NCBI RefSeq assembly: GCF_027942865.1
Contig: NC_134510.1
Span: 21,445,209 to 21,509,208 of the forward strand
Length of the DNA stretch: 64,000 nt
Source of the DNA: Odontesthes bonariensis
Taxonomy: Eukaryota; Chordata; Actinopteri; Atheriniformes; Atherinopsidae
Direction: 5' to 3'
In this document: piece by piece, positions 34,988-63,956 of the stretch
How positions within the stretch are numbered: position 1 is the first letter of the stretch
Layout: each line of letters starts with the position of its first letter
Program-made: the position numbers and the translations under genes
Notes under the pieces: model-generated
Seen by the model: the letters and a program-made list of their open reading frames with translations, nothing else
Told to the model about the DNA's origin: nothing
The model's database searches: none

Positions 34988-37148
34988 TGGCTACCATGAC
35001 AACAGAGGCAAGCGCTGTGAGTGAGGCAGACACCGAGGGCAAGCAGAAGACCAGTGGTGCCGCCCCTGACCCTGAACCTGAACCAAATAAGCAGAAGCAG
35101 GAGACAGCAGCATCTGAGCAGGAGGGGGAGCAGTCGAGTAAGAAAGGCCAGGTGCAGGTTGCTGAGCCCGGGCCTGTGGATGTAGCTACCTCCCCCGAGG
35201 AGGAGCAGCTCAAGCCTCGAACCAGGACCTCTGCCGGCAAAGGCCTCTCTCGGCTCTTCTCCTCTTTTCTGAAACGCCGGTCGCAGTGCTCCGAGGGTGA
35301 GGGCTTCGAGGCGGAGAAAGCCAGGGACGAAAAAGCAGACAAAGAGGAGAAAGGCGACAAGGACGAAGAAGAGAAGGTGGAAGATGTGAAAAGTGAAGAC
35401 AAGGAGGTTAAAGCAGTGGAGGAAAAAACCAATGACAAAGAAATCAAAAAGGAGGAAGATGAAGAGGAGAAAGTAGAACAAAAAGAAGAGAAAAAGAAAT
35501 TGGAAGAAAAAGTTGAAAAGAAAGGCAGTAAAAAGAAAAAGAAAGAAGCAAAGAAGAAAGCAGAGGAAAAGAATGAGGAGAAAGTGAAGAAGGACGAGAT
35601 AAAAAAGGAGGAAGAAAAGCCGGAAAAGAAAGAGGAGCAAAAGGAGGAAGAGAAGGCAAAGCAAGCAGTAGAAAAGGGGGAGACAAAGCCAGAGACAAAA
35701 GAAGAAGAAAAGCAGACTGCTGAGGTTAAAGACAAAGAAGAGTCTGGAAAGAAAGAGGAAGAAAAAGTTGACAAGAGGGTTGCCAAGAAAAAAGAAAAAG
35801 AGGAAAAAGTAAAGAAGAAGGAAGAGGAGAAATCAAAAAGGAAAGCAGAGGAAGAGGAGAGGGTAAAAAAGAGAGAGGAAGAGAAGGCAAAGAGGAGAGA
35901 AGAGGAAAAGGCCAGAGAGGCTGAAAAGGCTAAAAAGAAGGAGGAGGAAAAATCTAAGAAGAAGGAGGAGGAAAAAGCAAAGGAAGAAAAGGCTAAAAAG
36001 AAAGAGGAGGAGAAGGCGAAAGAAGAGAACGCTAAAAAGAAGGAGGAGGACCAACCAAAAGACGAGTCAAAGAAGGAAGAGGAAAAGGTGAAGGTAGAGG
36101 CCAAGAAGAAGGAGAAAGAAGAGGAGGAGGAAAAGACTGAAGAAAAGCAGCAGAAGGGAGAGGAAAAGGGGAAGAGAAGAGAGAAGGGAAAGAACAAAGG
36201 AAAGAAGGAGGAGAAAGCACCGGCTGAGGAGCAGGTGAAAGCACCGATTGCTGCTCCAGAGCCTGAGCTTAAAACTGAGCCAGACACTGAGCAGGCTCCA
36301 GATCAGCACTCAGTGAGCAGCGCAGAGACACAGGTGGGTGACTTAGAGGCAGATTACACCCAGCACCCCAATTACTGCTTATTTTTTACACAATGATGAA
36401 AACAGTTATGTAACACACCTATCCACTGACTTAGGAAACATAACAGTATTTTTGATAATGGACCTTTTTTTAAACTGTGGTTAATGAGGGGGAGGGGGGG
36501 GGGGGGGGTATAATTTTATAATCAATCTTCTCCTCAAACCGTGGACAAGAAAACTAGCAAAACAAAGCTCTCCTGTATACAGATTCACTCGTGTTTTTGC
36601 TCGCCACTGAATCTTTTATGACGGCGGTAGCTTGTTCAGCAAAAGCAACTGCAATGGTTTCAACTGGGGGCTTGGTTCGACACAAGGAATTACTTTTGCT
36701 TCTCCGAGCAAAAGCTGCTATAAACGGCTGGATATTTCCCTTTTACTATGATGTGTGTTCATAACTCGGCTGCTGCCGTCATTGTACTTTGCATGCGTCA
36801 GGTCCTTCATCAGTGTTTGACACAGATTTTTTTTTTTTTTCGAATTTCTTTGCCTCCCGTCAGCCTGCTCCAGAGGAACAGAAGGACGAGTCTGAGATAA
36901 AGAAAGAGCCCGAAGTGGTGGAAGAGGGGGAGAAGGAGGACGCCGAGAAAAAGGAAGGGGAACCGGCAGCGCCGCAGGAGGAGACCAAAGGAGAGGAGAA
37001 GGCCACGGAGCAGGCAAAGGGAGAGAAACCTGTGAAAGAAAAGAAGACGGACAAGAAGACAGAGGAGGCCAAAGGCTCCAAACGTCCGAAAGTCATGCAA
37101 TGCAAAGTCGCCTTACTGGACGACACTCAGTTTGAGTGTGAACTTGAT
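34988..37148 (+). other. epb41 headpiece exons with Lys/Glu-rich expansion
   Basis: Exon 34988-36333 (446 codons from the ATG) and exon 36864-37148 (95 codons). The human headpiece anchors are both present: [12 protein letters not shown] near codon 85 and [15 protein letters not shown] near codon 415. They are separated here by about 300 residues of [10 protein letters not shown]-type sequence, where human has only a few dozen. The second exon is again Lys/Glu/Pro-rich and ends in the first FERM strand ([18 protein letters not shown]). The expansion is probably an extended charged helix or a disordered spacer. The minus strand across it has no stop for 463 codons, a by-product of the biased composition. 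Confidence 0.85.
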
Positions 37149-40100
37149 GTAAGAGACCCACCAATTTATTTTTTTTTTCTTCTTCACATGTTCATGTAGC
37201 GCTCTGGCGCCTGATTAACATTAACATTTGTAATAGAGACTAAAGGAATCTACTTGTGTGTCTACTCCCTGTCTACTTGTGTGTCTCATTTAGAAACACG
37301 CTAAAGGCCAGGAGCTCCTTACAAAGGTGTGCGACCACGCTAACCTCCTGGAGAAGGATTACTTTGGCCTCGCGATCTGGGAAACACCAACCAGCAAGGT
37401 GGGTCGGCTTCTCTCGTTGTGTCATTTGAGTTGCTCTTTAAGAATAGAACCAGATGAAATGGATATCTGAGTGTTTGTTCTTCTTCCCCCCCCCCCCCCC
37501 CCCGCATTTTCTGCAGATATGGCTGGAACCCACCAAAGAGATCCGTAAGCAGGTTTCAGGCGCTGTATATGAGTTTACATTCAGCGTGAAGTTCTACCCT
37601 CCTGATCCGGTGCAGCTTACTGAAGACCTCACCAGGTAAGTGTTGAAGGAACAATCAGTTGTTGCTTTTATCAAAGGTTTCTTACTAGAAGCTAGAAGCA
37701 ACTCCCTGGTGAGAATGGGAATACAGTTTTTACATCTTCATAACTTTGCTCTAGGTACTTCCTGTGTCTCCAGCTGAGAAAGGACATCATGCGTGGGATT
37801 CTTCCCTGTTCCTTTGTCACACTGTCCCTGCTGGGCTCCTACGCGGCCCAGTCCGAGCTGGGGGAATACGACCCAGAGGTTCACGGGGCAGAATATCTCA
37901 AAGAGCTGAGTCTGGCTCCCGGACAGAGCAAAGAGCTGGAGGAAAAAGTGATGGAGCTGCACCGCACTTACAGGTGATTAAAGGGCCTGGCTGTTTATTG
38001 GATCGAATAGAGATGGTAGTTCATAAACAAAGACCCCTTTCTTTTATTTCAAAACTGCCTAACAATAATGTAACCTGAAAGTGATCAGAAGAGTGAAGCG
38101 CGTCTTTGAAAAGAGCCGAATCGTTTCTGTGTGCAGGTCCATGAGTCCAGCCCAGGCAGACATGCTGTTTCTGGAAAATGCCAAGAAACTTGCCATGTAC
38201 GGAGTTGACCTGCACCAAGCCAAGGTGGATATTCTTTCCATATCTCATTTTTATCAGCAGTTGTTTTACAGGTTAAGTTGAGGCTTTTATTTAAAAAAAC
38301 AAAATCCTAAAAGTCGTGCTATGTTCTGACTTCCTTCCATTTTTAAAATGCTTGCCACTGCTTCACAACAGCAGCTTTGTATTCCAACGTTAGCAAATTT
38401 AATTGCAAAATTGATGTCATCCCCCTTTCATAAAAAATGGAGATTAATAACATTTCAAACCCCTTGACCTCAAAGTCCAGGGTCTGATTATGTGAGGAAG
38501 TCTGCCCCCCAGTGACTGTTTGCTGTAAGTGCAGGGAGAAAGCGATAGTCCGACTTTCTTTCTTTTTCTGCCTGCAGGATCTCGATGGTGTTGACATTAC
38601 ACTGGGGGTTTGCTCCAGTGGTCTAATGGTTTACAAGGACAAACTGAGGATCAACCGTTTTCCTTGGCCCAAAGTGCTCAAGATCTCTTACAAACGGAGC
38701 AGCTTTTTCATCAAAATCAGGCCATCGGAGGTGAATGTCAATTGTTCATTTAGTTGTTGAATTGTTCCCAATCACTTTACAGTAGTTTGGGTTTGAAGCT
38801 CTCACCGTATTTCTAATGAAGTAATAATTCAAATTGATATGAACAAAAACCTATTAAGACAAAGTAAAACTCTACTTTTTTTTATGCGATAGTTCAAATT
38901 TTTGGGGGCTGTGGGGAGTGATATTATTATTATTATTTTTTTTTTTTTTTTTTTTTGCTGTGTTGCAGAACAATGTCCTTAACACGAAGTCATAAAATCC
39001 AAACCAACTTTGATTTGTTTCTTCCCATTTAGCAAGAACAGTATGAGAGCACCATCGGCTTCAAACTGCCCAACTACAAGGCCTCGAAGAAGCTGTGGAA
39101 AGTTTGTGTTGAACATCATACCTTCTTCAGGTGAATACAAGTTGTCCTACGTTCTTTCTGAACAATAAGCTACACACACATGGTCCCAACCTTAAATTGA
39201 AACCTTCGTGTTTTCGTTTGCTTGATAAAATGCAGGTCAGAGGTGTTGTTTACCTTGTTTTGCGAAGGGGTTATATTGGGCCAACGCATGGCTGCTTATG
39301 TTGCATCCCTGGCTTTCATGAGATTAAATGGTTAGATTGATTCATTGATAGTTTGGTTAAAGTTCCATTTTTGTATCTCTCGCTCAGGGTTTCAACAGTG
39401 GAGCCGACTTCATCGCGCCGCTTCCTGCTCTTGGGCTCTAAGTTCCGGTACAGCGGTCGCACTCAGGCGCAGACCCGCCAGGCGAGCTCCATGATCGACC
39501 GCCCAGCCCCACGCTTCACGCGCTCGGCGAGCAAGAGGCTTTCTCGTAACTTTGACGGAGGTACGTGCAAGCGTCGGTTTTTCTCGCACTAAACCCCACG
39601 TTCGATATCCCGCTCTCTGACTTGTTTTGCTCTTGCAGCTGGAGAGGAGACTCTCCAGCTTCTGCAGCAGCTCTCCGCTTCAGCCAGGTCTGAGATTGAT
39701 GATTGGTCGTTAATGATGGCACATGACCAACCTCGGCCTCCTCGTGAATCCCCAGGTACCGGTGTGGAAGGACACGCAGTGCCTTTGGGCATGTTGCTAA
39801 CTCCTCGGTTGTAGCTTTCGGTCTTATTGCATTATTAAACATTCTTATCCATTTTCCATTCATCTGCTTTCATTTCCCTTAAATATGTGGAAATGTGTCT
39901 TTGAGCATAGTCGACATCTGTCAACAGTCGTGACATCACAGTCATGGCTTAGTTCTTCCCCTCGCATGACTCAAGTAGTTTTTGTTATTGCGAACTCCAA
40001 AATGATCAAGATGAACAAGCTTCCTCTCACGCTTAACTATTCTTGGGCGTTGCCCGTCTTGAGGTTGCTGTTCCTCGTCATTTTTTAGGAGTTGTGCTAA

Positions 40101-43100
40101 AAGTGTGGAGCGCATTCATTTTAATTTGCTTGTAACTTACGCCGTGCTTAACCTCTTAACCTACTGACTCGCTCGTCACTGCTGCGACATGGTGATGGTC
40201 ATTGCAACAGGAACAAAATGCCAATTTTCCCCTTGTCGACCGCTCTTGTTCTGGAGTATAAGCATCATGCTTCATCTGTTTGCACTAACCTCATCTCACA
40301 GGACTCGCAGTGGTCCAGTGCAAACGCTTGGCATCTAACTGGATTACACATACGCTTGAAGCGCTGTGAAGCATTCGCAGTGGTCGTCATCTGTCTGGCA
40401 GAATCATTTCATAACTGCCATCACCTCGCCATCTCTTCACAGCTGGAGGGGAGCCAGAGCAGACTTCCACTCAGTTCTGGCAGGAGGAGCAGTCCCTTCA
40501 AACCTGGCAGGGCTCTGAGACTGTGAGCAGCGGCTCTCAAATCGTTGCCCGGACAGTCGGTCAGCCATGGCAGCCAAAGGAAGACCAGTGGTCTGCCATG
40601 CTGTACCGGGATCCTCCTCTGCCTCTGGTCCCTCCTTTTGACTTTGTGAAGCAGCCAGGTATCTGCACTGGCAACGCCTACAGACGCTTTCCCACATTTC
40701 AGTTGATCTCCATTCATGTGGGATGAGTTTAGCAGTTTGCCACTTTAAGCTGGAGAGTTGAATTTCATATTTCTGTATTTGATTTTCCAGTGGCTTCCGT
40801 ACACTATCCACCACTAAGAAACCAAACACAACTTTTTTTTTTTGTTTGTTTTCCTCTGTTTGAGCTTTGTGGGGTGTTGTTTCTTCTGGTGCAAAGATGT
40901 TACAGTTTGTTTCTCTGATGTCGTCAGCCAAAATCAGCTTGGCAACAATGACCTCTACGGACCAGCTCTTGAAACCAGCACTGCCACAGCAAGATGATTG
41001 GTTCCTGTACTTTGACCGAGGCTTCAGCGCATCTTCCCCCGAGCGTGTTGAAAAGCCTCCATGTGAGTTTCTTTGTGTGAAAATATGACCCACAAACTTT
41101 TCTTTTTCAGCCAATAAGGTCAGCACCAGCCTAAGACACGAATCACATCGTTGTATATTTCATGGCGTGGTACATAACTTTTATTTTTAATTCCTCTCAG
41201 TCTCTCCCCGTGTCCAGTTCAAACTCCAGTTTGAGGAGGAGGAGGAGGGTATGCAAGTGACTAAACTGGAACGGACCTCCACGAAAACGATTGAGAGACT
41301 GCAGGAATCGTTGATCTTGGTAGACAAGTTGAGCGAGAGGGAAATTTTGGAAGCGAGGCTGATGGAAGTGAGGGAATTGGAGGAAAGGCTGCACAAAGCA
41401 GATGAAATTGCAGACAGCCTGCAGAAGGCAATAGAGGAGGAGTTGGGGAAGGAGGAGGTGGACAGGTTAAGAGCAGAAGAGGGGGAATGGGAGCTGGAGC
41501 AACAAGTCAGAGGTATGGTAGAGGTGGTGGTGAGAGAATCCGTCAGGAGGATAGAGGGAACGGAGGATGACGAGGATGAATTGGAGGAAGAAATAAAGAG
41601 GGTGTTTTTAAAAGGCTTGCTGCCTGAAGAGGAAGAGGGTGAGAAGGAGGCGGCACAAGGGAATCTGTTGGATGACAGTTTGAGAGAGAAGTTACGGCAG
41701 ATAGAAAAGGAATGGCAAGAGGAGGTGGAGGAGAAGTTTGCCTTGCCAGACTCTGCTGGCACCACTTATGAAGTAGCCTATCAAAGGGTGGAGCGCACAG
41801 CCACAAAGAGGGTGACTATTGTAGAGGAGACAAAAGAGTCTGGTGGGATGTTAGAGAAACAAGAGTTTATGGAGCAGAGGACGAGGAAAGGGGTTACAGA
41901 GAGGCGTCAGACTGAGGATCAAGCTCGGATGGAAGATGAGGATGACTGGTTTGAACTTTTCGACCTGCCTCCATACAAACCAGTTTACAAAGCACCAGGT
42001 AGAATTGCAGAGAATGCCTTTATTGTACAGTATGTTATTGTGCAAACAGCCGTGGACGCGCTAACATCTCTAATATTCTAACAGTGAAGATATAGAGATA
42101 TTGTGGCAACGATTAACTCATTAACCAACTAGTTCTTCTCTTTAAATGATACTTCTGCTAGCTGCTACAGTAAGGTGAATAACATACTCCACTGCGGATT
42201 TGCAGTTGTAGTAGTAGTAAGTCTTAGAACAGCTTCTCGTGCTCTGCTTATGTTACAGCAAGCTTTTTGAAACTACTGTGCATTTGCTGCTGTGGTCAAA
42301 TACTTTGTGTCTTTACCCTCCTGACCAGTCCCTGCCGCGGAACTTAGAAGGATCGAAGGGAGCGAGCATTTCAGCTCGAAGGCCGCGACTGTGGCACTTG
42401 TGGAGAAAACAGACGTTATAGTGGAGGAGAGGCAAGTAAGAGAAGAGGGAGGGTGGCGCGCGCCGGAGATCCCGCCCAAACCGGCAGTCATAGAAAGGGT
42501 CGATGACTGGTTTGTGTTGTTGCATTTTCCTCCCAGAGAAACATCTTATGCGCCACCAGGTACCGCGGAAACACCCCGTGCTGTTTGTCTCTTGTGCTTT
42601 ATATCGCGCTCGCCCGCTTATGAAGGAGGGCAGATCAATGCTTGCGATAAAATACTGTCTCCATGCTTTGCTCATCAGTTACGTTGAAGGAAAAAACCCC
42701 GACGGACGGCGAGGTTTTTGTCACCGTTGTCGGAGCGGCAGAAGAGGAAAAAGTAGTAGTTGAACAGAAGCAGGCGATAGAAGAGACACCAATATCTGTA
42801 GGAGAGATCCCACAGCAGTCAGTGACAGACAGAGATGATGACTGGTTTGTGTTGCTGGATGTTCCTCCCAAAGAAACGACATATGTTCCACCAGGTACCG
42901 CGGAACCCCCCCCTGCTTGTGCTTTATATCGCGCTCGCCCACTTATGAAGGAGGGCAGATCAATGCTTGCGATAAAATACTGTCTCCATGCTCTGCTCAT
43001 CAGTTACGTTGAAGGAAAAAACCCCGACGGACGGCGAGGTTTTTGTCACCTTGGTTGCAGCCGCAGAAGAGGAAAAAGTAGTAGTTGAACAGAGGCAGGC

Positions 43101-46100
43101 GATAGAAGAGGCACCAAGATCTGTAGGAGAGATCCCACAGCAGTCAGTGAGAGACAGAGATGATGACTGGTTTGTGTTGCTGGATGTTCCTCCCAGAGAA
43201 ACGACATATGTTCCACCAGGTATAAGCACAAAATCCCCTCCTCTGTTTCCAGTTTTTATTAGAGCAAGCAAAACTTATCTGTATCTTTTTCTTAAAGTCT
43301 GCTTAAAACCCATATTGATTCAAGTTTTTTTTTTTTTTTAGTTGTTGTTGTTGAAGTGACCCCAGAAGGTGTCTCTCTGACTGACGTAGCAGCTGTTGAG
43401 CAAAGAGAAAAGAGAGCTGAAATTTTAGTAGAGGACCTAGAAGTCAGAGGAACGCCAGTTGAAAAAGAAGACGACTGGTTCATGCTGCTGGATGTGGCTG
43501 TTAGAGAACCATCATATGTGGCCCCAGGTAGTGCAGACGCTCCCTCGTAAACCTTTTCAGATCTTTTTCTAAAAGTTTTATTCTTTTCTGTCCTGCTCGA
43601 GTGTCTCACAGCCCTTTTCATTCTGCTCGTTTATAGTTCCCGTGGCTGAGTATGCTCAGGTTTATGACAGAGAGGTTTCTGCTGTGACTGAAGCCCGGGC
43701 AGTAGAGGCCAGGAGGAAGGTTGTAGTTGAAGAGATTGTGATAGAGAAAGAGGAGAAGAAGCTTCCTGAGCAGAGGACAGTCCTGCCAGAGAGGGAGAGA
43801 GAAGATGACTGGTTTCTGCTGCTGAATGTTGTTTCCAAACAGGCTTCTTATGTGCCTCCAGGTACCCACATCCTTGGAATGTCTGTTTGAATATCAAGAT
43901 GTCAAGGAAGACTATGTTGTGTTTGAAAATGGCCAAAGCTGAAGTGCGCATTTTTGTTTTTTTCAGTTTCTGTGCCGTCACCGACTAAAATCTTTCCAGA
44001 TGTTCGAACCCAAGCGCAGATTGTAGAGCAGGAGTTGTATGTTGAACAGATTAAGCCACAGCCCTGCCAGCTGCTGCCAGAGAGAGATGATGACTGGTTT
44101 GTTCTGTTCGATGCTGTTCGCGAAAAGGCAGTTATAATACCGGCAGGTATACAGTTGATTTTATGTTTGCACCCAACACAAGACATGCACACTTCTCACT
44201 GGATACACAAGTGTCACGCAGCTTCTCTCACGCTCTGTTTGTGCCAGCTGCTCCTGTTGAGGTTATTCGGGATGTGAAGAAGGCATTTGTGGCTGAAGTG
44301 ACAACGACAGAGACTAGAACATACAAGGAGACGATAATTAGCGTGGACAGGACGCGTCTTTCCGAAATTAGGCCGAGCCAAGCTACATCGCTATCAGAGA
44401 GAGAAGGAGAAGACGACTGGTTCGCCCTGTTTGACGTCACTCGAGAAAAACCCGCAGTCGCACCACCAGGTACGCGTAGTCGCCAACGGGCTCGCGCACA
44501 CTGTGCTCAAAGGTTTGCATCCGGTTGATTCATTGTCATGTTTTCTGTGTCAGTTGCTGTGGTTCGGCGTGCTGTCGATGTAGCGCCACCCACTGAACCT
44601 AAACCAAAACTCGCCATGGAAGGGGCGAGGCCACCTGTTGTTTTGGTCAACCAGCTGCAGACAAGAAAAGTGGATGATGACTGGTTTGTGCTGCTAGAAA
44701 AAGTATCAGGTATTCTGCTGTTTTTTTTCGGGGGGGGGGGTTTAATTGTGGTCGTTGCTATGAAACAAGATCAAGCTGCCCTAAACGAGTTTCTTTCATA
44801 TTTCACTTTTCAACCTGAAACTTGGAGCACTAATAAGAAGTAAACAGCTAAACGGTGTGATTGCACGGCGGTTCTGTGGCAGCTTTTCTGTGTTTATGTC
44901 GGAGCTCCTTGAGATACAGAAAAGATGAAAAGGAAGATCTGGAGGATAATGCTGGCAATAAGACTGGGGAATTAAGATTTAGAGAAAGCATTCCTGTACG
45001 TGACCTTCGTCTTAGTTTTGCTTTCTGCGTTTTCTGCGCCAGCTGCCGCGGATGAACGTATCCGTCTCCCCCCTCAAGTGAGCTCAGCTACAGAGTTTGC
45101 AGTCACGCAGCAGAGAGCACAGAAAAGAGTTACTATAGTGGAGCAGACGAGGCAGAAGATCGATGTGGTGCAGCCACGTCCGGCAGTGAGAGAAGTGGAA
45201 GATGATTGGTTTGTACTTCTGGATGTGGCACCTAAGAAATCAGGTATATTCCAAAAGGACTTCAACGTGTTGCACACACAAAGGTTTCTTGTTGAGGTTC
45301 ACGTGACCCTTTGATCTAAATGAGGCAGGGCTCTGTGTCTTTTCCGCAATAATACCTGGTTGTGCATTTGTATTAGCTGCTGCTCCTGAACGCATCCAGT
45401 TCCCAGCAAAGGTCAGAGTTCCGGCTGCTGGGGTCAGGACGAGGATTGATATTGCTGAGACGAGACCACAGTTTGAGCAGCGGATCCTGGCAGAAAGGCG
45501 TCCACTCACTCAAACACGAGACGATGACGATTGGTTTGTTCTGCTAGATGTTGACCGCAAAAAGTCAGGTATTTTTCTCCTGTTTGGGTTTGTTTTTTTG
45601 TTTGTTTTTTGGCAATGAAACTCACATGTGGCTTTTTTCGCTACATAAAAAGCTTACTAACATTTGCAACCTCTGCTCAGGATACACTGACTTCTCTTCT
45701 GAGAAAGCCTCTGTAGACGGCAATCCATGTTCACCCACTCTCAAAGGACCAGTGACATTTGCAGGTTGAAGAAATAATGCTTTCTTAATCCCGACATTTC
45801 ACCGGTTGGACCCCATTCAGCTTGACATCGAGCCTAACATCATTTGCCGTTGTATCCACCGTTGGATTGTAACAAGAACTAAAACCCGCTGCTTCTGTCA
45901 TTCCACTTTAAGGACATCTGCTTTTCGCTTACCTCACGTTCTCGAGTGTGCTTGTTTTCTTTTAAAAAAAGAGAGTATTGGGGAAACAAAATGAGGTACA
46001 GTATACCCCCGCTTCATTGGAATTTATTTAGTCACAGCAAGGCCGGGTACAGTAAGTATAAAACGCTCTCGCTGGTTCGATGTGCGACAGCCTTATTTGA

Positions 46101-49100
46101 TCATGTCCATATAAACCCATCCCCTTCCAAAACTGTATGTGCCAAGCCTATTTGATTTTGATCAATTCCCAATTTTCCCTGCATTTTCTTTTAGTTGTGA
46201 GCACACAGAGGGGCACGCGTCCCGTCAGCGCCCCGGTCTTCTCCCAGGCCGCTCTGGCAGAGGCAGGGATCCCCATGGCGCCCTTCGAGCAGCCGCAGAC
46301 CTCCACTCCCATCAGAACCAGCCGCCAGGAGGAGAGGAGGCTGGAGGTCACCGTAGAAGCTGTGGAGCCTTTGAAAATCGAGGCAGTGACTGAGGTCAAG
46401 GTATTTAGGTTCTCTCATCACTTCCAGCATTATATTGCATGCATGGATGCCATACTTTAGGTTTTGCCAGTAAAAAGTAAACAGACTCTTCATGATGCGT
46501 CCTCATAGTGGCTGCATAGATATTGTGATTGATAGAGATGTAAATAAGTGTTTTGTTGTAAATGCTTCCTAGTATTTCATACATGGCCAGCAGAGATTTC
46601 TCTCTGTGTCTGAGTGTGAACTGTGTCTCTCTTGCTGCTGTAGCCAGCAGTGTGGAGGGGGCAGAGAGAAGTAGACTCTTCACTGATATCCACCATCAAT
46701 GGGGACATTCAGGTTAGTGGCAGACCCCTGTTGTCCCTCAGAGGACGTGTTTTCACTCTGGCCGAGACGCGGCACGTCAGAGCCAGCGAGCAGAGGATGC
46801 TAACACGTGTGCCCTCTCTCCTCCCTTCGGGGTAGCACGAGTCGGAGACAAGCGCGGAGGGCGTGCGAATGCGAAAGGTCAGATTGTCGGCGCCGCACGT
46901 GTTTTCCGTGCCGCCATTTCTCCACCTCCATTCCCGATGATAAAAAGGGCTTCTCATCCTAAAAGACTAATTTCACCCTCTTCCCATGTTGTGCTTCCAT
47001 ACGCCATACAGTATGATGTAGGAGATAGAAATGCAGTGATGGATAGAATATGTAAACGGTGACTAACAGAACACTGAAAATCTGATTTAGCTGTTTTCAA
47101 AGCATTGGTTTCTCCTCACTGCCTGCTGTTGTAATCACTGGAATGCACACATGCATGATGATAGACTAACTGGTGTTTTTTTTTTTTTGTCACTCCATCG
47201 CCACTTCTTTTTCTTATTATAGTCATAGAAATAGCGGGTCCTCTGGGGCCGTTTATTCTTTGCTTTGCTAGTATTGTGCAGTGGTCACTCGGCACCAACC
47301 AGTTTTGCATGTACTCCTCACACCTCCTCTTGTGTATTGTGTTAACACATTAGTGAATGTCATAGTATGCATGTCTTAAGGTGTGGCAGTGTGCTGCCAG
47401 CGTTCGGGGGAAACGGACACAAACCCACACTTTTTTTTGTTCTTTTCATTCTTCACAGAAAAGAGCTAAGAAAATTGAGGGTGACTCAATTTATGTCAGA
47501 CATAGCCTTTTAATGCTGGAGGTTTGTATCCCTTTTTTTTGAGATGTCGGTCTCCAGCTGTATTTTCTTGCTCTTTGGCACGCCAACTGCTGTTTAATCT
47601 CACGCTTGCATGCGGCATGATTCGCACTTTGGGCACCAGCGAGAAATGACAACGCGTGTGGCAAAAATCACTCTTTATCTGCCCGATTCAGGAGACTGCT
47701 GCTGAGCTTGAAAGTAAAGGAACAGGTTATGATCAGGGTTCTTGCTTATTGGCGCACTTCATATCATCCTTTACTGTCCCCTAACGATGAGTCACGCGAT
47801 GCGGTCGATGACCCATGGTGTAAGCTAATCTGGGACACAAAAAAAAACCTTTCTGGTGAATTTTAGTGAATCAGTTCAGTTTTTATCTAGCATGTATTGA
47901 ATCTAGATCATCAGTAATCTCCTGTTCTTGCTTTTGCTCTGTACGTCTCCATCTGTTTTTCAACTTCTCAGCTCATACATTGCACCTTTACAGCAATCAT
48001 GCAAATGAGTCTTTGGCTGTAGAAGTGCAAATCAGGATATTTATACTTCTTTTCTGCGTGTGATGCATAACTTAGATGATGTTTGGTGAAGCACTCATGA
48101 TTAAGTTGCTCTAACGCCACAATAGGTCTTGATTAACAGCTAAACTGCAGTATGTGTCGCCATGTGGCTTTCACCATCTTGCACTTGTCCACAAAGATGA
48201 GACTCTGTGCTTAATGTTGCCGAATCAGCGCTTCTCCTGCTCCCGTCAGTTCATTTGCATTAAATGAACGGGTTTCCATTCCCAGCGAGGCTTCATCTTT
48301 AACGGTCTGAACCATGTCTGCTGTCATCACCTCTCCTGCTGTTTGATTTGCAGCCCGTTCTTTCTCGACACGTCTCACGGCAAACCTAACGCTGTGAAAT
48401 AGATCCTCAACGCTGCGCTGTGTGGTTTATCGCTTCCAGAGCTCCAAATTGTAATCGGTCTTGATGAATCATGGCGGCACTCAGCTGCCAGACTTAATTT
48501 GCAGCCTGAAAAGGAGTTTCTGGTAATCTATCAAGAGACCACAAGCTTTTGTACTTCTATCTCGAAGTACAAACATTGCGATTAATGGTCCCTTGTAATG
48601 TACGTTCCCTTAGAATCACCTGTTAACCCTGCTTCTGCTTATTCATTTAACCAGCAGCCTTAAAACTGCAGTGGAACCACAGGAAAGCAACGCAATCTCA
48701 CTATTTTTTTCTTCTTTTATATTCTCTTCTGTTCCTTATTCTCTCCTTCACCTCCCTCCCTCCTTGTTCTTTTATCCCCTTTTTTTTTTTTTTTTTTTTT
48801 TGCCACCTCCACGCCCGGCTTTCCTCCGTGCAGGAGTTCGAGAAGCCTCAGGAGGACCTGATCAGGCACCACGCCAGCGTCAGCGAGCTGAAAAGGAACT
48901 TCATGGAGGCCGTCCCGGAGCCGAGGCTGAGCGAGTGGGACAAGCGCCTTTCCACACACTCTCCGTTCCGCACCCTGGGCATCAATGGTCAGCCTCTGCC
49001 AAGTGCAGATGGGGTAAGTCGCTCCAGAATGGTCGATTCCTGAACAGACGTGGTAAAATCCCCACAAGTGAACAGAGTGTGCAGAGATTTAGTTTTGTAA

Positions 49101-52100: not shown

Positions 52101-54834
52101 TAGATGTGATGTTCAGTTGAAATTTCAACCCTATGATGCAGAAGTGACTGGATTTTAGAACTAATCAATGACATGATCTCTAAGGGTTTTTTACGACGTG
52201 ACATGAAATGACCCAAAGTTGTGTTTATTGACTAAATACGTACATCGTACACTATACAGATGCATCCGAGTTCATTATCCATCTGGAATGGTAACCTACA
52301 GTCATGTGTGTGGGATAAGTGGCCAATTGTGGCCTGCGTGTCTGTGGCTATGAAATAGCTGTGATTGGGTCATATAAAAACAACTAGATCCCCAGCATCT
52401 TCTGCAGTATTATGATATCTAGTACTCTGATGTTCTTGCATGCAAACAGTTTGATAATTCATGTCAATTCCACTTGTTATTCAGAGTTCTCTGCTGGCCC
52501 CACGATCACACGGTGACTGTGTTGTTGTTTTTTTGTTTGTGTTTTTAGAGTGTGTGCATTAGTCTCCCGTGCAAAGGTTTGCAGACAAAGGCTGCTCATG
52601 AGGAAACCAGCAGTAATCTGGGCTTTTTAGACCTACCCATGCCCTGTGTGAGCCACAAGTGTGAGCCTGATAGTCCTGACGCCTTCAGCGCTCCTGTTGG
52701 AGAGCTGTCATGTGGTCAGGAGGAGGTGGTAGTTTTCGAGACACTCTCGGTGCCAGTTTTAGAGGTGGAAAAGGCACGGCTGGCTCCTTCCTTTGAGCCC
52801 TCCCGTAAAGCTTTAGATGTGATCCAAGAGGAAAACGAATCATGTCCCGGGGAGGCGGAGCACTCTGGGAGGATAGTCGGATCTTCCCCAGCTTCCTGTT
52901 TCCGGAGCGAGGGTCCACAGGTCATACGCTGCTTCCAGGTAGTCTCCGGACTCGCTCGGGGTGATGCTGATTCTTTCACCGCTTGGCCCTCTGGCTTCCA
53001 TACTTGCTCACTCCTTTGCAGCACGCACAAGTCAAAACTTGCAAATCAATGAAGGTGGTGCACGCCTTAAGAGTGGCCTGAAATATCATCATCAAATTCA
53101 ACTCAATGCGCCGTAGATGTGTTGCACAGTAGTGTTCCAGACTGTGGTGACGGGTTACTGCAAGAATATCACCTTCTCCTCTGACACAAAATCTCATTGA
53201 CTTCACTTTTCGTCATCTCTTTCCAAATCACTTCATGGCTTTACAGTTTTCGTTTGGAGGTTTATTTTAGGTTGGTGGTGGGGGAAAAAGAAATGATGTG
53301 ATCGCCATGTTTCAAAATTGAATCAGAGCTGACGTGGGCATTTAAATGAATGGCACTGAAGGGAATGCGTGGTGTAAAAATAAAAAATTAAAGAATTTTT
53401 TGCGAGGTGTCTGGTTAAACAGCCGCTCATGGGGCTATGCTCCCATTCGCAGCCCCCTCTGGTGCAGACCCAGACTGTCACCATCGCAGCTGCCTCCTTA
53501 CCCAGTGACATCTCCACCAGAGAGGTCCCTATCGTCCCGACCAAGACCTTCACCTATGAGCCTTCAAAGGTAGGGGCTCCAGCACATGATCTGTCTGGGC
53601 TGCAGGCAGGTGGGTTTGCACAGAGGAGCTGGCAGCTGACAGCGAGGGGTGGGGGGGCATGTGAGGGCATGTTCCTCCAACGGACGCTCAGGGTCACAGT
53701 ACTTTAAAAAGGATTACTAAGTCTGCGCTGTGTTTTGGTATTTTTTTTTTCGTTTTCAGACGACAGATGACGGGACAGACGAGGACAAAGATGGTACGGC
53801 AGTGTCCAGTTCCAAGACCATTACCTCCGAGACCACCACTGGTACCACAGTCACCACCACTACCACTCACATCTCAAAGGTCAGGGGGATGAATCTCGTT
53901 CTTCTCGCCTTTTCTGTTTTGCTTGATCTTATTTGGCACGCCTCTCAAGTACGTTCGACCTATTTCACAGGTAGTGAAAAGCGGATCCTCGGAGGCCCGT
54001 GTGGAGAAGAGAATCGTCATAACCGCAGACTCTGACATTGACCAAGATAAGGTACAAACCCTGAATACTGGACGGCCTCCGTCCATTACACAATACACTA
54101 TCTGCGCTCGGTCTGAGCTACAGACGGTACTTTTAATTGATGTACGTAAAATATGAAGCTATAATTCTGAAAATAGTTATCTTAACCATAAATGGTTAAG
54201 CTCAGCTGCAGTTGGAAACTCTGATTTGATTTCTCACTCAAAGAGCCGATCTCCCGAGCAGAGGTCGTAAAGCTCAGAGTGTTTCTCGTCCTCAGCTTTT
54301 AATCTCACCATCCATCTTTGCAAAAGCTTTAGATAAGACACAATACTGCTGTAAAAAAATACAAAGGGCTTTTTTAGTTTAATGCGTTTCATCCAAGGGA
54401 GCGCAGTCGCTGTCGTGTTGTAATCTGAATGTTCAGCGCTGCGGCGGCTGGTCCGGCTGCAGGTTCCTGCTGTAGGTTCCTGCTGTTCACCTCAAACCAA
54501 GCAGATGTCCTTTAGTGCCACGCCAAGTGGTTTTCCGGTTTCGAAATTGAGCAGGTCTTGCGTCTATATCCCGACAGTAATTTCCTATTTCTCCGCAGGA
54601 ACCAAACTAGCCGTTTTCTCATTTCCACTGGTGCTAAGTTTATCTTATGTTGCCAGCTGAAGGTTTGTATGTAGAGAGCGGTTAGAAAACCAGTCTCCGT
54701 TTTCTCATCAACTCACGTCGTCACGTTTCTCTCGTACTATCTGATTGAGAATATGGTTTGGATTTTACTCGATTAAATGATCGAAATGCATGACTGTCTT
54801 GCAGGAGAAGCACGGCGGAGCATCGGCATTGTAA
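34996..54834 (+). CDS. epb41: Protein 4.1 (EPB41/4.1R type), giant form, ~2,416 aa
   Basis: Thirty-four coding exons with consensus splice sites give one open frame of 7,251 nt including the stop. Order: headpiece, FERM (band 4.1) domain, FERM-adjacent region, a novel array of DDWF-motif exons, spectrin-actin-binding block, and C-terminal domain. The protein is expected under the plasma membrane, linking the spectrin-actin skeleton to transmembrane proteins. FERM and actin-binding wording fits 4.1R better than 4.1G/N/B as I recall them (for example [20 protein letters not shown] and [14 protein letters not shown]). The start is ATG 34996 (ACCATGA, reading MTTEA), as in the long human isoform, 8 bases into its exon. 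A second conserved in-frame ATG at 37095 corresponds to the initiator of the 80-kDa erythroid form. Exon coordinates are in the sub-entries. Many exons are probably alternative. Confidence 0.92.
37294..39560 (+). other. epb41 FERM domain and FERM-adjacent exons
   Basis: Exons 37294-37398, 37517-37635, 37755-37973, 38137-38224, 38578-38730, 39033-39130 and 39388-39560. They encode the rest of the three-lobed FERM domain, which in 4.1R binds band 3, glycophorin C and p55. Landmarks: [20 protein letters not shown] (lobe 1), [15 protein letters not shown] (lobe 2), [15 protein letters not shown], and [13 protein letters not shown] (lobe 3). [15 protein letters not shown] is the calmodulin-binding helix known in human. 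The last exon is the FERM-adjacent segment ([20 protein letters not shown]), whose Ser/Thr sites regulate FERM binding in the family. It ends in phase 1. Confidence 0.93.
39639..45764 (+). repeat. epb41 array of 15 phase 1-1 exons with DDWFxLLD repeats
   Basis: Exons 39639-39755, 40443-40658, 40928-41062, 41201-41998, 42329-42559, 42679-42894, 43004-43219, 43342-43527, 43637-43861, 43967-44146, 44248-44469, 44554-44709, 45043-45243, 45377-45568 and 45681-45764. Every length is a multiple of three and every boundary is phase 1. Fourteen carry the core: [53 protein letters not shown] (twice), [54 protein letters not shown] and [10 protein letters not shown] basic-hydrophobic strand such as KRVTIVEE often precedes it by 25-40 residues, and many units end in PPG. 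The 41201-41998 exon adds a long Glu-rich helical segment. Function is unknown. The array sits between the FERM-adjacent exon and the exon homologous to human 'RPTSAPA'. Confidence 0.88.
42560..43219 (+). repeat. Recent tandem duplication inside the DDWF array
   Basis: Intron-plus-exon unit 42560-42894 (335 bp) is followed by 42895-43219 (325 bp). The two 216-bp exons are nearly identical and so are their introns (sharing GCAGATCAATGCTTGCGATA and the acceptor context). The intron difference is mainly a short deletion near the start. Intron similarity shows that the duplication is recent compared with the other units. Confidence 0.9.
46195..49013 (+). other. epb41 spacer and spectrin-actin-binding exons
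   Basis: Exons 46195-46400, 46644-46712, 46836-46877, 47459-47521 and 48834-49013. The first ([13 protein letters not shown]) matches the human exon that directly follows the FERM-adjacent exon. The 69- and 42-nt exons match the small alternative exons (TINGDIQ, GVRMRK). The 63-nt exon encodes 21 residues ([16 protein letters not shown] then LLMLE), the equivalent of human exon 16. In red cells its inclusion controls high-affinity spectrin-actin binding. The 180-nt exon gives [19 protein letters not shown] and [14 protein letters not shown], the constant part of the domain. All are phase 0 after the first, so skipping any small exon keeps frame. Confidence 0.92.
50545..50571 (+). repeat. (TCC)n pyrimidine tract
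   Basis: A run of about eight TCC units is followed by CTCTTAG. It forms an unusually strong polypyrimidine tract for the acceptor at 50577 and may vary in length between individuals. Confidence 0.8.
50578..50634 (+). CDS. epb41: Candidate alternative terminal exon of epb41
   Basis: Directly after a long CTC-rich tract and TTAG, an 18-codon frame (reading [18 protein letters not shown]) ends in TGA at 50632-50634. It is in phase 0, as needed to follow exon 48834-49013. Usage would end the protein just after the spectrin-actin-binding domain and omit the C-terminal domain. AATAAA at 51375-51380 could close a 0.75-kb 3'UTR. The short peptide is not low complexity. There is no independent proof of splicing. 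I do not recall a described 4.1R isoform with this tail. Confidence 0.5.
   Translation, partial: FVIRLPRGPLLDFYSKRS
51375..51380 (+). terminator. Possible polyadenylation signal for the short epb41 isoform
   Basis: AATAAA lies about 740 bases after the TGA of the candidate alternative terminal exon, in the correct strand and within the 3.5-kb intron of the long form. Confidence 0.35.
52549..54834 (+). other. epb41 C-terminal exons
   Basis: Exons 52549-52938 (130 codons, Ser/Glu-rich, not recognised), 53453-53569, 53760-53879, 53971-54051 and 54805-54834, all phase 0. The middle three match the 4.1 C-terminal domain: [36 protein letters not shown] and [20 protein letters not shown]. In all 4.1 paralogues I recall, the next exon reads approximately QAIKEAKEQHPDMSVTKVVV. 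Here it is absent, and a ten-triplet exon (EKHGGASAL then TAA) follows. The 130-codon exon may correspond to a paralogue-specific alternative exon in the family. Confidence 0.85.
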
Positions 54835-57324: not shown

Positions 57325-58997
57325 TTAGCGAATCGTCTTCACTGGGCTTTTGAAACTTGACGCAGCCTGAAGTTGGAGTTGATAAGCCATTGGGTGGATT
57401 TTGAAGCCGTATAGCCTGAAAAAGAACAAACAAACAAACAGTTGTTCTGAGGTCACTGACTTTGGAAACGAGGGAAAGTTTGGTACAACGCCGCAAGGTG
57501 CAGACTGAAGACTAAGCTTTCCACAGACCAAAGCAGGATGTCATTGAGAACAATAAATAACATTTGAACAAACCTTGGCACAAACTGGTTGGCTGGCCGT
57601 TTTGGCCGATACTCTGGGTGCACCATGAACAGCATGTGAGGGAACCCCGTGCCAAAATAGGCTCCGTCCGTGTGGTGGTGTCTGGAGGACTTGGGGGTGT
57701 AAACGTCCATGCACTTTGGACAATAAAGCTTCACCATGGCTTCTCCTGGGATGTCTGACAAACCTAGATCAGTCAGGGGGGAAAAAAACCCCAAAAAACT
57801 TTTAAGAAGTTTTATCACAATAGACTGAAAGACAATTTGTTGAGAGTCATACTTACCAATAGGAAGCATTGGCTGATTCTCACAATAGACTCTGGGACAA
57901 TAGCCAAAATCCCCTTGTTGATATTTTTCCAACTACAAAAAAACCCCACAGAGGTTATTGCAGATTATATAGCCACAGAGCTTGTAGAACTCAGAAATTA
58001 CCACGCAGCCGCCCACCATTTGTGCAATGCCTCTGTTTGTCAGAATGTAGCGTGCATGTATAAGTCCATACAGCATCTCTGCCGCCTGCTCTATCAGGTC
58101 GCTCTGGTTCGGGTTATCCTCGATCTCCTCATCTATAAAACACAAAAAGAAAAAAGCGATTTAGGCAGTGGGAATAATCAGCGCTGATCCGTTCCAAAGC
58201 AACGAGTGCTGGCTGCGCGATGACATCACCTGGCTCCAGGTCCAGAATCATGTCCAGAGCCTGGCGATAGTGAGGCACCTGCTCATTCAGACCCGTTAGG
58301 TTAAACTTGTCCTGTATGTAGTCTTCGTCAACCTGTAACACAGCAGCAGAGGAGGGTCAAACTCTATTAAAAGGCATTAATTACTGGTGCCGCAGCAGCA
58401 GATCAGTACCGCACGCTGATGAGGAAACATTACACAAGAGATTAAAAGGATTAGTTAAGACGCTGCTAGTGAAGAAAGTAGGGAGTTAAAATTAGAAATG
58501 GGATCGTGTGAGGGCTAATGTTCCAGACAAACCAGTGCTTAAGGCTGATGTTGGTGTAAAAGACAAACTGTATGACCAAAGCTAGTTTGAGATGGTCATT
58601 CAGACGTCAGGATTTAAAACACAAATAACATCCAAAACTAATTACCACATCTCGACAGCGCAGCCTCCAAAACTGAGAAAAGCTGGAAATCCTCCTATGT
58701 GATCAGCTTCAGCAGATACCTCTTCCTAAATATATTTAACCTATAAGGTGAGATTATATTGTAAATTGTGAAAAGCTCTGCGTTGTTGCAGGTGCACCAG
58801 CCTGGGTGGTGTAGCTGACTGTGGTTAAATTTGTGCTTTGGTATGACAGAATACTTTTTTTTGGGGGGGGGGGGGGCTGGACTCTGAACGGTTTTCTTAA
58901 ATGCCAGCTGAAGTGTGAAACTTACCTCACAGAAAAATTCATTCCCTCTGAGTCCACAAAACCAAGATATCCAGGACACCTCCTCTGAGCTGCTCAT
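57325..58997 (-). CDS. csnk2b: Casein kinase II subunit beta (complete, 215 aa)
   Basis: Minus-strand exons 58926-58997, 58230-58332, 58017-58132, 57857-57932, 57574-57763 and 57325-57415 join in frame to 215 residues, the same length as human CK2beta. The product is the regulatory dimer of the constitutive Ser/Thr kinase CK2. The N-terminus [15 protein letters not shown] carries the autophosphorylation site. An acidic loop ([11 protein letters not shown]) follows, split between exons. Two CxxxxC/CxxC pairs (CPRVYC and CPKC) form the zinc-finger dimer interface. The C-terminus ends KSPVKTIR. The start exon has a 31-base leader after an acceptor at 59029-59030, so a noncoding first exon lies upstream. 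It is tail-to-tail with epb41 and co-oriented with aif1. Confidence 0.98.
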
Positions 58998-61825: not shown

Positions 61826-63956
61826 ATGGCACAGTCCTATTTTCCGGCTCTTCATTTGTTAATTCTAGTTACAGTCGTAGTGGAATGCAGAGGTGAGTTT
61901 GCCACACAATCATTTTCTCATCAGAATTTTCTTATCAGCAAACAAGATAAATATAGTATCATTTTTTCATGCTTTAGATAAATAATGTATTCGGTGCCAC
62001 TTCTGTTCTGTGATGTAATGTTAATCATTTATACCAGAACCAAAGCAAAGAAAATATATGAATGAATAAATCGGAATACAATAAAAATCTCGTAATGTTT
62101 ACTGTTGAATGCTTTAGCTTAGAGTAAACTATCCTAACACCTGATGCACGTTATGTCCCCTTTCCGTTGGTTAGATTTTATCTTTATGTTTTGTCATTCA
62201 TCTGAAATGGTTTCTATAGGTACGATTCTGTCAGCATCTAAACAGGAAGATGTGGCTCTGTTTTGTTTGGACTCAAACGCGATGGATCTGAAGAGCTCCA
62301 GCAGAGGCAGATTGATAAAGTATGCCACAGATGCCACAGGCACGACGAGGGTCATGTTTGAGTGGCCAAAGAAATCACGGGATGACAAACGTGTGAAACT
62401 GGGAACAAATGAAGATGGGAAAACATGCCTTTTCCTGAAAAACCTGCAAAAATCTGACGCCGGGTGGTACGGCTTTGAAATCTGGGAAGGATGGGAGATT
62501 GTTCAGCACCGAAACATATCTTTGAAGATAAAAGGTAAAAACTACTTTTTGTATTTATTATTCTACAGAAAGATCTCCCTTCTTTATCGCACGTTCTCTA
62601 AAAATCTTTCAGACTGTAAAACCCTTCAATCAGTAAAGGCAGCACCCGGTGGACTCGTTAAACTCATGTGCCAAGCGAATGCAACATCAGGGCGGCAAGA
62701 GCTTTCCAGTGTCTCTTGGGTAATGCTGAAAGGAGACAAAGATGAACCTATTGACAGTGAACGAGTTCAAATGAACGTCCCTTTCTTGGCTATCCAGCCT
62801 GTGGCTGTCAGTGACAGTGGCTGGTACAGATGTTATTACATGCTTGGAGAAACTACGCACTGCTCTGACATCAATCTACATGTCCAAGGTCTGATATTTG
62901 ATATCTTTTTTTGCTCCATCGCTAACAACACATGATTATACGCCTAATTCTTATGATTTGTTCTGCTTTGCATAATGAAGAAATGAGTACTTCTGAGGCC
63001 ACAACTTCTCCAGTTCCAACCGTCACAAACACTGAGGAAGGTCGGCTGATGTTTCACATACATTTATGCAATGATCCATTTTTCATCGGGATGTTCTCAT
63101 GTCTTTGTCTAATGTCTTTCTCAGCCCTGACAGTCAGTGAAACTGTGCCGACTACTTTGGAGGAAGAGAGCGGCAAACCTTTGATTCCAGCTGTGGCCTT
63201 AGTCGTTAGTATGAGCCTTATACTTGCCGCACTGGCAGGGTTGTTCATTTACCGCAGATGTAAAACACAGAGCGTCACACAGCAGCCACAGAGGCAAACT
63301 GAAGGTTGGATCTGTCTGAAGCTTGTTCAGCCATTGTACTGACCCAGTGTGGAGACAGATGACCTCATATTTTCTTAATCTGATTTGTCTTACAGTGTCC
63401 ATGGGCGGTTACGAAGATCTGTCTCTTCCATGTTCGAAGCGTGAGTGCCAGCTTATGTCTTCATTTGCAAAAGCCTTCACCCCTCTTGGCGAATCCCCTT
63501 TTTCCTATTTTGTTTAAATACAACCTGCCGTTTCAATGTACATGTTTGTGGTTTCTTAAGTAATGGACAGAGTGAAGTGAACTTAACAGAGGAACAAGAA
63601 TGAAGAAAAACAAACTTTAAGTGTTGTATGGATATGCTGCCAATCACCTTTAAAAGACACATGATTCATTCAAGTCCACCTCTGTGCAAACCAAGTCACA
63701 CATGGCCTCAGTGCATACTGTATGAATGCTTATTGTCAAATGCCTCAAAGCCTACAATATCTCCCACTGTGCCAAGTACCACATCTTCACAGTGAAGCAT
63801 GGTGCTGGCAGTGTCATGCCATGTATAATACCAATACTTCACGATATGATTCCTTCTGTTTTGTTCATCCCCTCATTTGGAACTTTTTACATCTCACAGA
63901 ATCAGCAGACCGTGCCAACAGTCTGTACTATTGCTCAGAGGAAAACATGTTGACTT
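61826..63956 (+). CDS. Two-Ig-domain type I membrane receptor, 3' end outside window
   Basis: Exons 61826-61892 (signal peptide MAQSYFPALHLLILVTVVVE), 62220-62534 (Ig domain 1), 62613-62888 (Ig domain 2), 62981-63040 (Ser/Thr/Pro stalk), 63125-63304 (stalk plus membrane helix IPAVALVVSMSLILAALAG then basic YRRCK), 63396-63440 and 63900-63956 (cytoplasmic tail). All junctions are phase 1. About 333 residues are visible, and the last donor (T then GTAAG) shows that more exons follow. Domain 2 is canonical (LMCQA, SVSW, DSGWYRCYY), resembling CD300/pIgR-type V domains. Domain 1 has the first Cys (ALFC), but DAGWYGFEIW lacks the usual second Cys. The tail has tyrosines in GGYEDL and SLYYCSEE, loosely inhibitory-motif-like. 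The membrane helix has no charged residue. It is probably an immune receptor, but I cannot name the family. Confidence 0.85.
63715..63840 (+). mobile_element. Degraded Tc1-like fragment in an intron of the Ig receptor
   Basis: The plus strand near 63785-63822 reads FTVKHGAGSVM, close to the Tc1 transposase block TVKHGGGSIM. It is a short relict without inverted repeats and lies just upstream of the last visible exon. Confidence 0.45.

Follow-up and report, generated by a model that had tools for sequence, protein, structure and literature searches.

A predicted array of duplicated exons with a preserved acidic-aromatic core in a protein 4.1 gene of Odontesthes bonariensis

The present study analyzes a 64-kb window of the genome of the fish Odontesthes bonariensis (NC_134510.1, positions 21,445,209 to 21,509,208; contig C6 of a genome of 945,434,557 bases), and all coordinates given are those of the window. 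Inside a protein 4.1-type gene on the forward strand, between the exons for the FERM and FA domains and those for the spectrin-actin-binding (SAB) domain, there is an array of 15 exon-like blocks (39639-45764) that add up to 3375 nt, or 1125 codons, with no stop, and 14 of the 15 carry the core D-[DQ]-W-[FS]-x-[LMY]-[LFM]-x. The core peptide is kept among the copies while the linkers between them are nearly free to drift. The array may be a multivalent docking cable between the FERM/FA and SAB domains of one of two 4.1R genes, a reading that we consider evenly poised between right and wrong.

Anatomy of the array and its core peptide

Each of the 15 blocks is bordered by AG/GT and, as the initial annotation had proposed, each is phase 1-1 with a length that is a multiple of three, the exons being predictions whose splice borders were placed by eye from AG/GT and the frame. 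The phase 1 ends match at both borders with the host gene, at the FA exon (ending at 39560) and at the RPVSAP exon (from 46195), and the array stands in frame between the FERM/FA exons and those for SAB and the C-terminal domain (CTD), in agreement with its earlier placement within a protein 4.1 gene. The spacer of about 1,000 residues then envisaged between FERM and the actin-binding region is located as described, and its size is 1125 residues. If the blocks are spliced in order, 13 of the 15 junctions give V or A as the residue of the split codon, the other two giving F (after E03) and G (after E14). It had also been suggested that any number of exons could be skipped, and 135 of the 136 possible exon joins do keep the frame open, the exception being E03 to E15, where the border bases create a TGA. 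Two finer points of the annotation failed: an upstream strand [KR]-V-[TV]-[IV]-V-E-[EQ], reported in many exons, is exact in 2 of 15 (E04 and E13) and loose in 6 of 15, and a terminal PPG was an artefact of reading the first base of the split codon, a G, into the intron GT, the exons ending in PP in six cases of 15 and in PA in one.

The core was recovered near the 3′ end of 14 exons, as originally described, with its W the 9th to 23rd residue counted from the exon end. Among these 14 copies W is invariant at position 0, preceded by D at -2 in all 14 and at -1 in 13, and followed by F (12) or S (2) at +1, V or L in 10 at +2, L (11), M (2) or Y (1) at +3, L (9), F (4) or M (1) at +4, and D in 9 at +5. 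Fourteen of the array's 20 W residues sit in the core, and successive core W residues are spaced by 47-77 residues, except in one gap of the 13, that across E04, where the spacing is 270. The strict pattern [DE][DE]Wxx[LIV] occurs 11 times in the array, against a mean of 0.19 and a maximum of 3 in 2000 shuffles. Homology of the units was examined with held-out profiles against a background of 2,327 other open reading frames of the window, from which frames bearing D[DQ]W[FS] were dropped; E06 and E07 were both removed when testing either, and E04 was represented by its last 85 residues only. Twelve of the 14 units were recovered at E<0.01, and, besides E03 (0.0086) and E12 (0.0005), the other ten had E values of 1.9e-8 or lower. 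There was in addition a second, weaker block, [VA]E[QET]R-like, in about 8 of the 14 units, 19 to 36 residues from W.

The array opens with two provisional units, E01 (39639-39755, 117 nt, core DDWSLMMA, held-out E 0.18) and E02 (40443-40658, 216 nt, DQWSAMLY, E 1.4), followed by E03 (40928-41062, 135 nt, DDWFLYFD). E04 (41201-41998, 798 nt) has a long acidic stretch before its core DDWFELFD, and its last 85 residues give a held-out E of 1.9e-8. Next come E05 (42329-42559, 231 nt, DDWFVLLH, E 5.8e-11), E06 (42679-42894, 216 nt, DDWFVLLD, E 7e-14) and its recent duplicate E07 (43004-43219, 216 nt, DDWFVLLD, E 6.3e-15), then E08 (43342-43527, 186 nt, DDWFMLLD, E 9.9e-10), E09 (43637-43861, 225 nt, DDWFLLLN, E 1.3e-11), E10 (43967-44146, 180 nt, DDWFVLFD, E 2.3e-9) and E11 (44248-44469, 222 nt, DDWFALFD, E 3.7e-11). 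The 3′ part consists of E12 (44554-44709, 156 nt, DDWFVLLE), E13 (45043-45243, 201 nt, DDWFVLLD, E 3.1e-10), E14 (45377-45568, 192 nt, DDWFVLLD, E 1.3e-8) and E15 (45681-45764, 84 nt), a symmetric exon-like block without a core, whose donor is the poorest among the 15 (5 of 9 consensus bases).

Duplication, selection and the docking interpretation

Identity between units drops with their distance along the array (r=-0.62, with none of 5000 permutations as low, the E06-E07 pair excluded), which agrees with the prediction of tandem duplication and with the exon duplication first postulated. E06 and E07 have an upstream intron in common and are distinguished by 10 of 216 bases, so that the copy number has changed recently; the differences also mean that the pair is not one copy assembled twice. 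This bears on the suggestion that the blocks normally lie outside the translated product, as an unspliced relic or an assembly oddity. Such a view would fit the donors, which on average match 6.3 of 9 consensus bases in the array (n=15) versus 7.2 in the rest of the host gene (n=16; p=0.006), but it would not account for 1125 codons without a stop, symmetric borders in 15 of 15 blocks, a constrained core, or the divergence of E06 from E07, and we consider it very improbable.

Selection was assessed from Nei-Gojobori proportions of nonsynonymous (pN) and synonymous (pS) differences over all pairs of E04-E14, with positions counted relative to W. The core (-2 to +5) had a pS of 0.80, a pN of 0.09 and a pN/pS of 0.12, with synonymous change saturated and the core itself picked for its conservation, whereas the flanks had a pN/pS of 0.87 (-12 to -4), 0.85 (-30 to -13) and 0.89 (+6 to +8); over E01-E14 the core ratio was 0.21 and the flank ratios 0.87, 0.88 (12 units) and 0.93. 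Synonymous sites were as diverged in the core as in the flanks (pS 0.59-0.77), or more, and because the low core ratio goes with a core pS of this size we conclude that the peptide was retained while the linkers drifted. The notion of an acidic-aromatic short motif is upheld to this extent. A passive or elastic spacer, lengthening 4.1R with a core that has no dedicated partner, might also be considered, in that the linkers drift almost freely and long open frames, as candidate exons, lie between FA and CTD in some other 4.1 genes of the genome (such as 471 aa on C3 and 348 aa on C15). A mere spacer would have no need to hold eight core codons under such constraint, however, and this explanation seems to us improbable.

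Under the docking interpretation each motif exon would supply a variable linker ending in one short peptide, approximately (E/D)-D-D-W-F-x-L-(L/F)-D, and a single pocket of a partner protein would recognize that peptide. With the FERM end held at the membrane and the SAB end at spectrin-actin, the cable would set the spacing between them and would gather a number of partner molecules, or a single oligomeric one through avidity. Since all array exons are phase 1-1, splicing could tune length and valency and leave the flanking domains untouched, by analogy with titin Z-repeats, and this symmetry together with the weaker donors offers hints, though only hints, of alternative exon inclusion. We infer from the sequence that splicing joins the array into a single translated chain, that a partner docks on the core, and that valency is regulated. 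The protein 4.1R links membrane proteins to spectrin-actin, and if the interpretation is true the array-bearing 4.1R would represent another type of connector, its anchoring ends 1125 residues apart and joined by a series of preserved peptides. Whether splicing tunes the spacing and valency of the skeleton could then be tested directly, and the array-free second 4.1R copy would provide a natural comparison within the same animal. A bolder form, in which the host copy has become a giant splice-tunable scaffold and a repeat lacking a model in the libraries searched brings a single pocket protein (Atg8/FIP200-like or entirely new) in numerous copies to spectrin-actin, is conceivable although doubtful.

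Several observations weigh against the docking interpretation. Although E01 and E02 top their held-out lists, neither is individually significant. The 10 changes between E06 and E07 divide into 7.5 nonsynonymous and 2.5 synonymous, which indicates that part of a unit, at least, is under little constraint. To the saturation of synonymous change and the choice of the core for its conservation must be added that conservation among copies within one genome is not conservation across species. By charge and hydropathy the array lies on the disorder boundary (H 0.436 vs 0.439); no more than five of its 15 exons (E01, E02, E04, E06 and E07) are clearly disordered by this estimate, and E14 is tied. That position makes a small folded unit a serious rival, in which the units would be small folded domains or a beta-rich packed repeat and DDWFxLL would be their structural heart as opposed to a docking peptide. 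The ten exons not clearly on the disordered side, the second block described above and a core strand propensity slightly greater than that for helix (1.23 vs 1.13) are all consistent with folding, although simple propensities and moments fail to separate helix from strand. Folded units would not be expected to show a pN/pS near 0.9 outside the core, lengths that vary widely, or a second block at so variable a distance from W, and no Pfam model reaches its cut-off; overall we regard folding as unlikely.

Comparison with known motifs and designs

A special case of the docking interpretation would make the core an LC3-interacting or FIP200-claw-interacting motif, with up to eleven sites at which Atg8-family proteins or FIP200 would be coupled to the membrane skeleton. 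According to PMC7615515, the LC3-interacting rule asks for an aromatic residue at 0, L, I or V at +3 and acidic residues at -1 to -3, and the FIP200-interacting rule is [DEST][DEST][FWYILV]xx[ILV]. Eleven of the 14 core copies conform to both, E01 and E02 (M) and E03 (Y) deviating at +3, and the W, the two acidic positions, the L at +3 and the V or L at +2 are all in keeping with that source. The pattern [DEST][DEST][WFY]xx[LIV] occurs 11 times in the array and nowhere in the other 620 modelled residues, with a shuffle mean of 1.6 and a maximum of 8 in 2000 shuffles. The rule is loose, however, and silent on F at +1 (12 of 14) and L, F or M at +4 (14 of 14), which are equally conserved; unlike LC3- and FIP200-interacting motifs, the array core adds these two positions and is present in up to eleven conforming copies. 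With F+1 and the +4 hydrophobic left unexplained, we refrain from assigning the core to this class. Since, in addition, no tie of 4.1R to motifs of the LC3/FIP200 type appeared among the literature matches listed, this special case appears quite unlikely.

Searches of known libraries gave no relative of the repeat: neither the array nor single units reach any Pfam cut-off, and the PDB contains no chain matching either profile, unit or core, at E<=10. Sub-threshold Pfam matches were set aside, namely Myosin_TH1 for the array (E 0.024) and Ehrlichia_rpt (0.0098), Myosin_TH1 (0.047), Parb-CE (0.21) and DUF6724 (0.34) for single units, as was a PDB match to a sigma-54 factor (E 0.45). The long tail of FAM21, in the WASH complex, displays numerous acidic-hydrophobic peptides that bind a single partner. 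Its acidic-aromatic repeats are similar to the design proposed for the array but with another motif, and FAM21 is not known to have one motif per symmetric exon.

The closest known design that we looked up is that of the titin Z-repeats, single-exon repeats whose variable inclusion sets the number of anchoring points for alpha-actinin, according to PMC9408699. The likeness is one of design, and we do not file the array as a Z-repeat; the PDB search that matched no chain to the unit or core profile gave no sign of homology, in a set whose Z-repeat content was unchecked. The U2 region of 4.1 proteins is termed nonconserved in PMC8473747, so that an insertion there would not be strange in itself. 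Exon skipping in common carp epb41l3b (PMC8867607) concerns another paralog and was rejected as a precedent of the array. Among the matches listed from open-licence PubMed Central titles and abstract beginnings there was no account of this array, which is no proof of absence, and it may well be present among the proteins predicted for other fishes.

The host gene, its relatives and the rest of the window

The model of the host gene opens with a candidate ATG (34996) and closes with a stop (54834). After a FERM_N piece ending at 37148, the FERM and FA exons lie at 37294-37398, 37517-37635, 37755-37973, 38137-38224, 38578-38730, 39033-39130 and 39388-39560; 3′ of the array are the RPVSAP exon (46195-46400, phase 1 start), the SAB exons (47459-47521 and 48834-49013) and the CTD exons with the stop (53453-53569, 53760-53879, 53971-54051 and 54805-54834), all on the forward strand. 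With the array removed, the model from 37294 exceeds the Pfam cut-offs for FERM_N, FERM_M, FERM_C, FA, SAB and 4_1_CTD, and thus has the three FERM lobes, FA and SAB in the order that defines the protein 4.1 family. By bit score, as opposed to a tree, its FERM domain is nearest 4.1R among solved structures in the PDB (487 bits versus 423 for 4.1B, with 4.1G and 4.1N unnamed in the list). The gene is like protein 4.1R (EPB41) in having FERM, FA, SAB and most of the CTD, and unlike it in having 1125 residues of exon array between FA and RPVSAP. The 4_1_CTD match is confined to positions 3-79 of 107; positions 79-107, which all five of the other 4.1 genes match, had no match for the host gene among best candidates, and a short pattern search 3′ of the modelled stop did not find the missing end. 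A candidate extra exon in the CTD region (52549-52938, forward, 390 nt) has no Pfam match at E<=0.01. Within the headpiece exon, 320 consecutive residues (35278-36237, forward) have a combined K, E and R content of 70% and may form a long single helix.

Genome searches scored best candidates and are non-exhaustive. Six of 14 FA matches were nearly full-length and correspond to the genome's six 4.1 genes. Of the 27 genomic matches to the degenerate pattern DDWFx[LF][LF], 11 fall in the array, and the remaining 16 are regarded as background because a reversed control gives 34; a DDWFxLL match on C12 (L024), in a short open frame closely flanked by stops, was likewise taken as background. Searched as protein, E13-E14 gave nine matches at E<=10, all inside the array and two of them the query exons, and no relative in viral contigs, while the whole E04 exon matched itself alone at E<=1. 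As DNA, window positions 42559-43230 matched themselves and an adjoining piece of the array. An origin of the array from outside was therefore rejected, these queries having matched the array only.

A profile search of the FA-to-CTD stretches of the other five 4.1 genes, on C3, C15, C19, C23 and C29 (118 kb in total), covered frames of at least 18 aa in both orientations and yielded no unit at E<=10, although units as diverged as E01 or E02 would escape this and the other genome searches. Comparison of the array with these loci by tblastn returned five matches (E 2.8 to 6.2), of which the nearest unit-like thing outside the host gene, 24 aa on C29 (E 5.6) with W-x-V-x-L-D-V on the core, was not seen by the profile at E<=10 and was taken as chance. 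Over 57 aa of FERM_C the C23 gene is 88% identical to the window, its FA is followed at about 1.7 kb by an RPVSAP frame, and we read it as a second 4.1R-type gene. With no unit found between its FA and CTD, the array would be particular to the host copy in this genome, either by gain or through loss in C23. An intron region of C23 (L059-L064) holds frames of short-period repeats and frames like those of long interspersed nuclear elements (LINE). The remaining genes we take, from sequence features as opposed to a tree, to be 4.1N (C3 and C15), 4.1B (C19) and 4.1G (C29). Large insertions between FA and CTD may be a habit of the 4.1 family, judging from the C3, C15, C19 and C29 loci (L050-L058), where the long open frames, such as those of C3 and C15, are candidate exons.

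Elsewhere in the window there were, on the reverse strand, an ion channel frame (10996-11472; Ion_trans_2, E 1.1e-20) that we read as two-pore potassium channel-like, a LINE-like reverse-transcriptase frame (12873-13742; RVT_1, E 1.5e-23 for the scanned piece) and exon pieces of a casein kinase II regulatory subunit (57453-57932; CK_II_beta, E 2.1e-32). Pieces of an immunoglobulin-domain gene lie on the forward strand at 62138-63342, with Pfam matches to V-set, Ig_3 and I-set for the frame from 62138.

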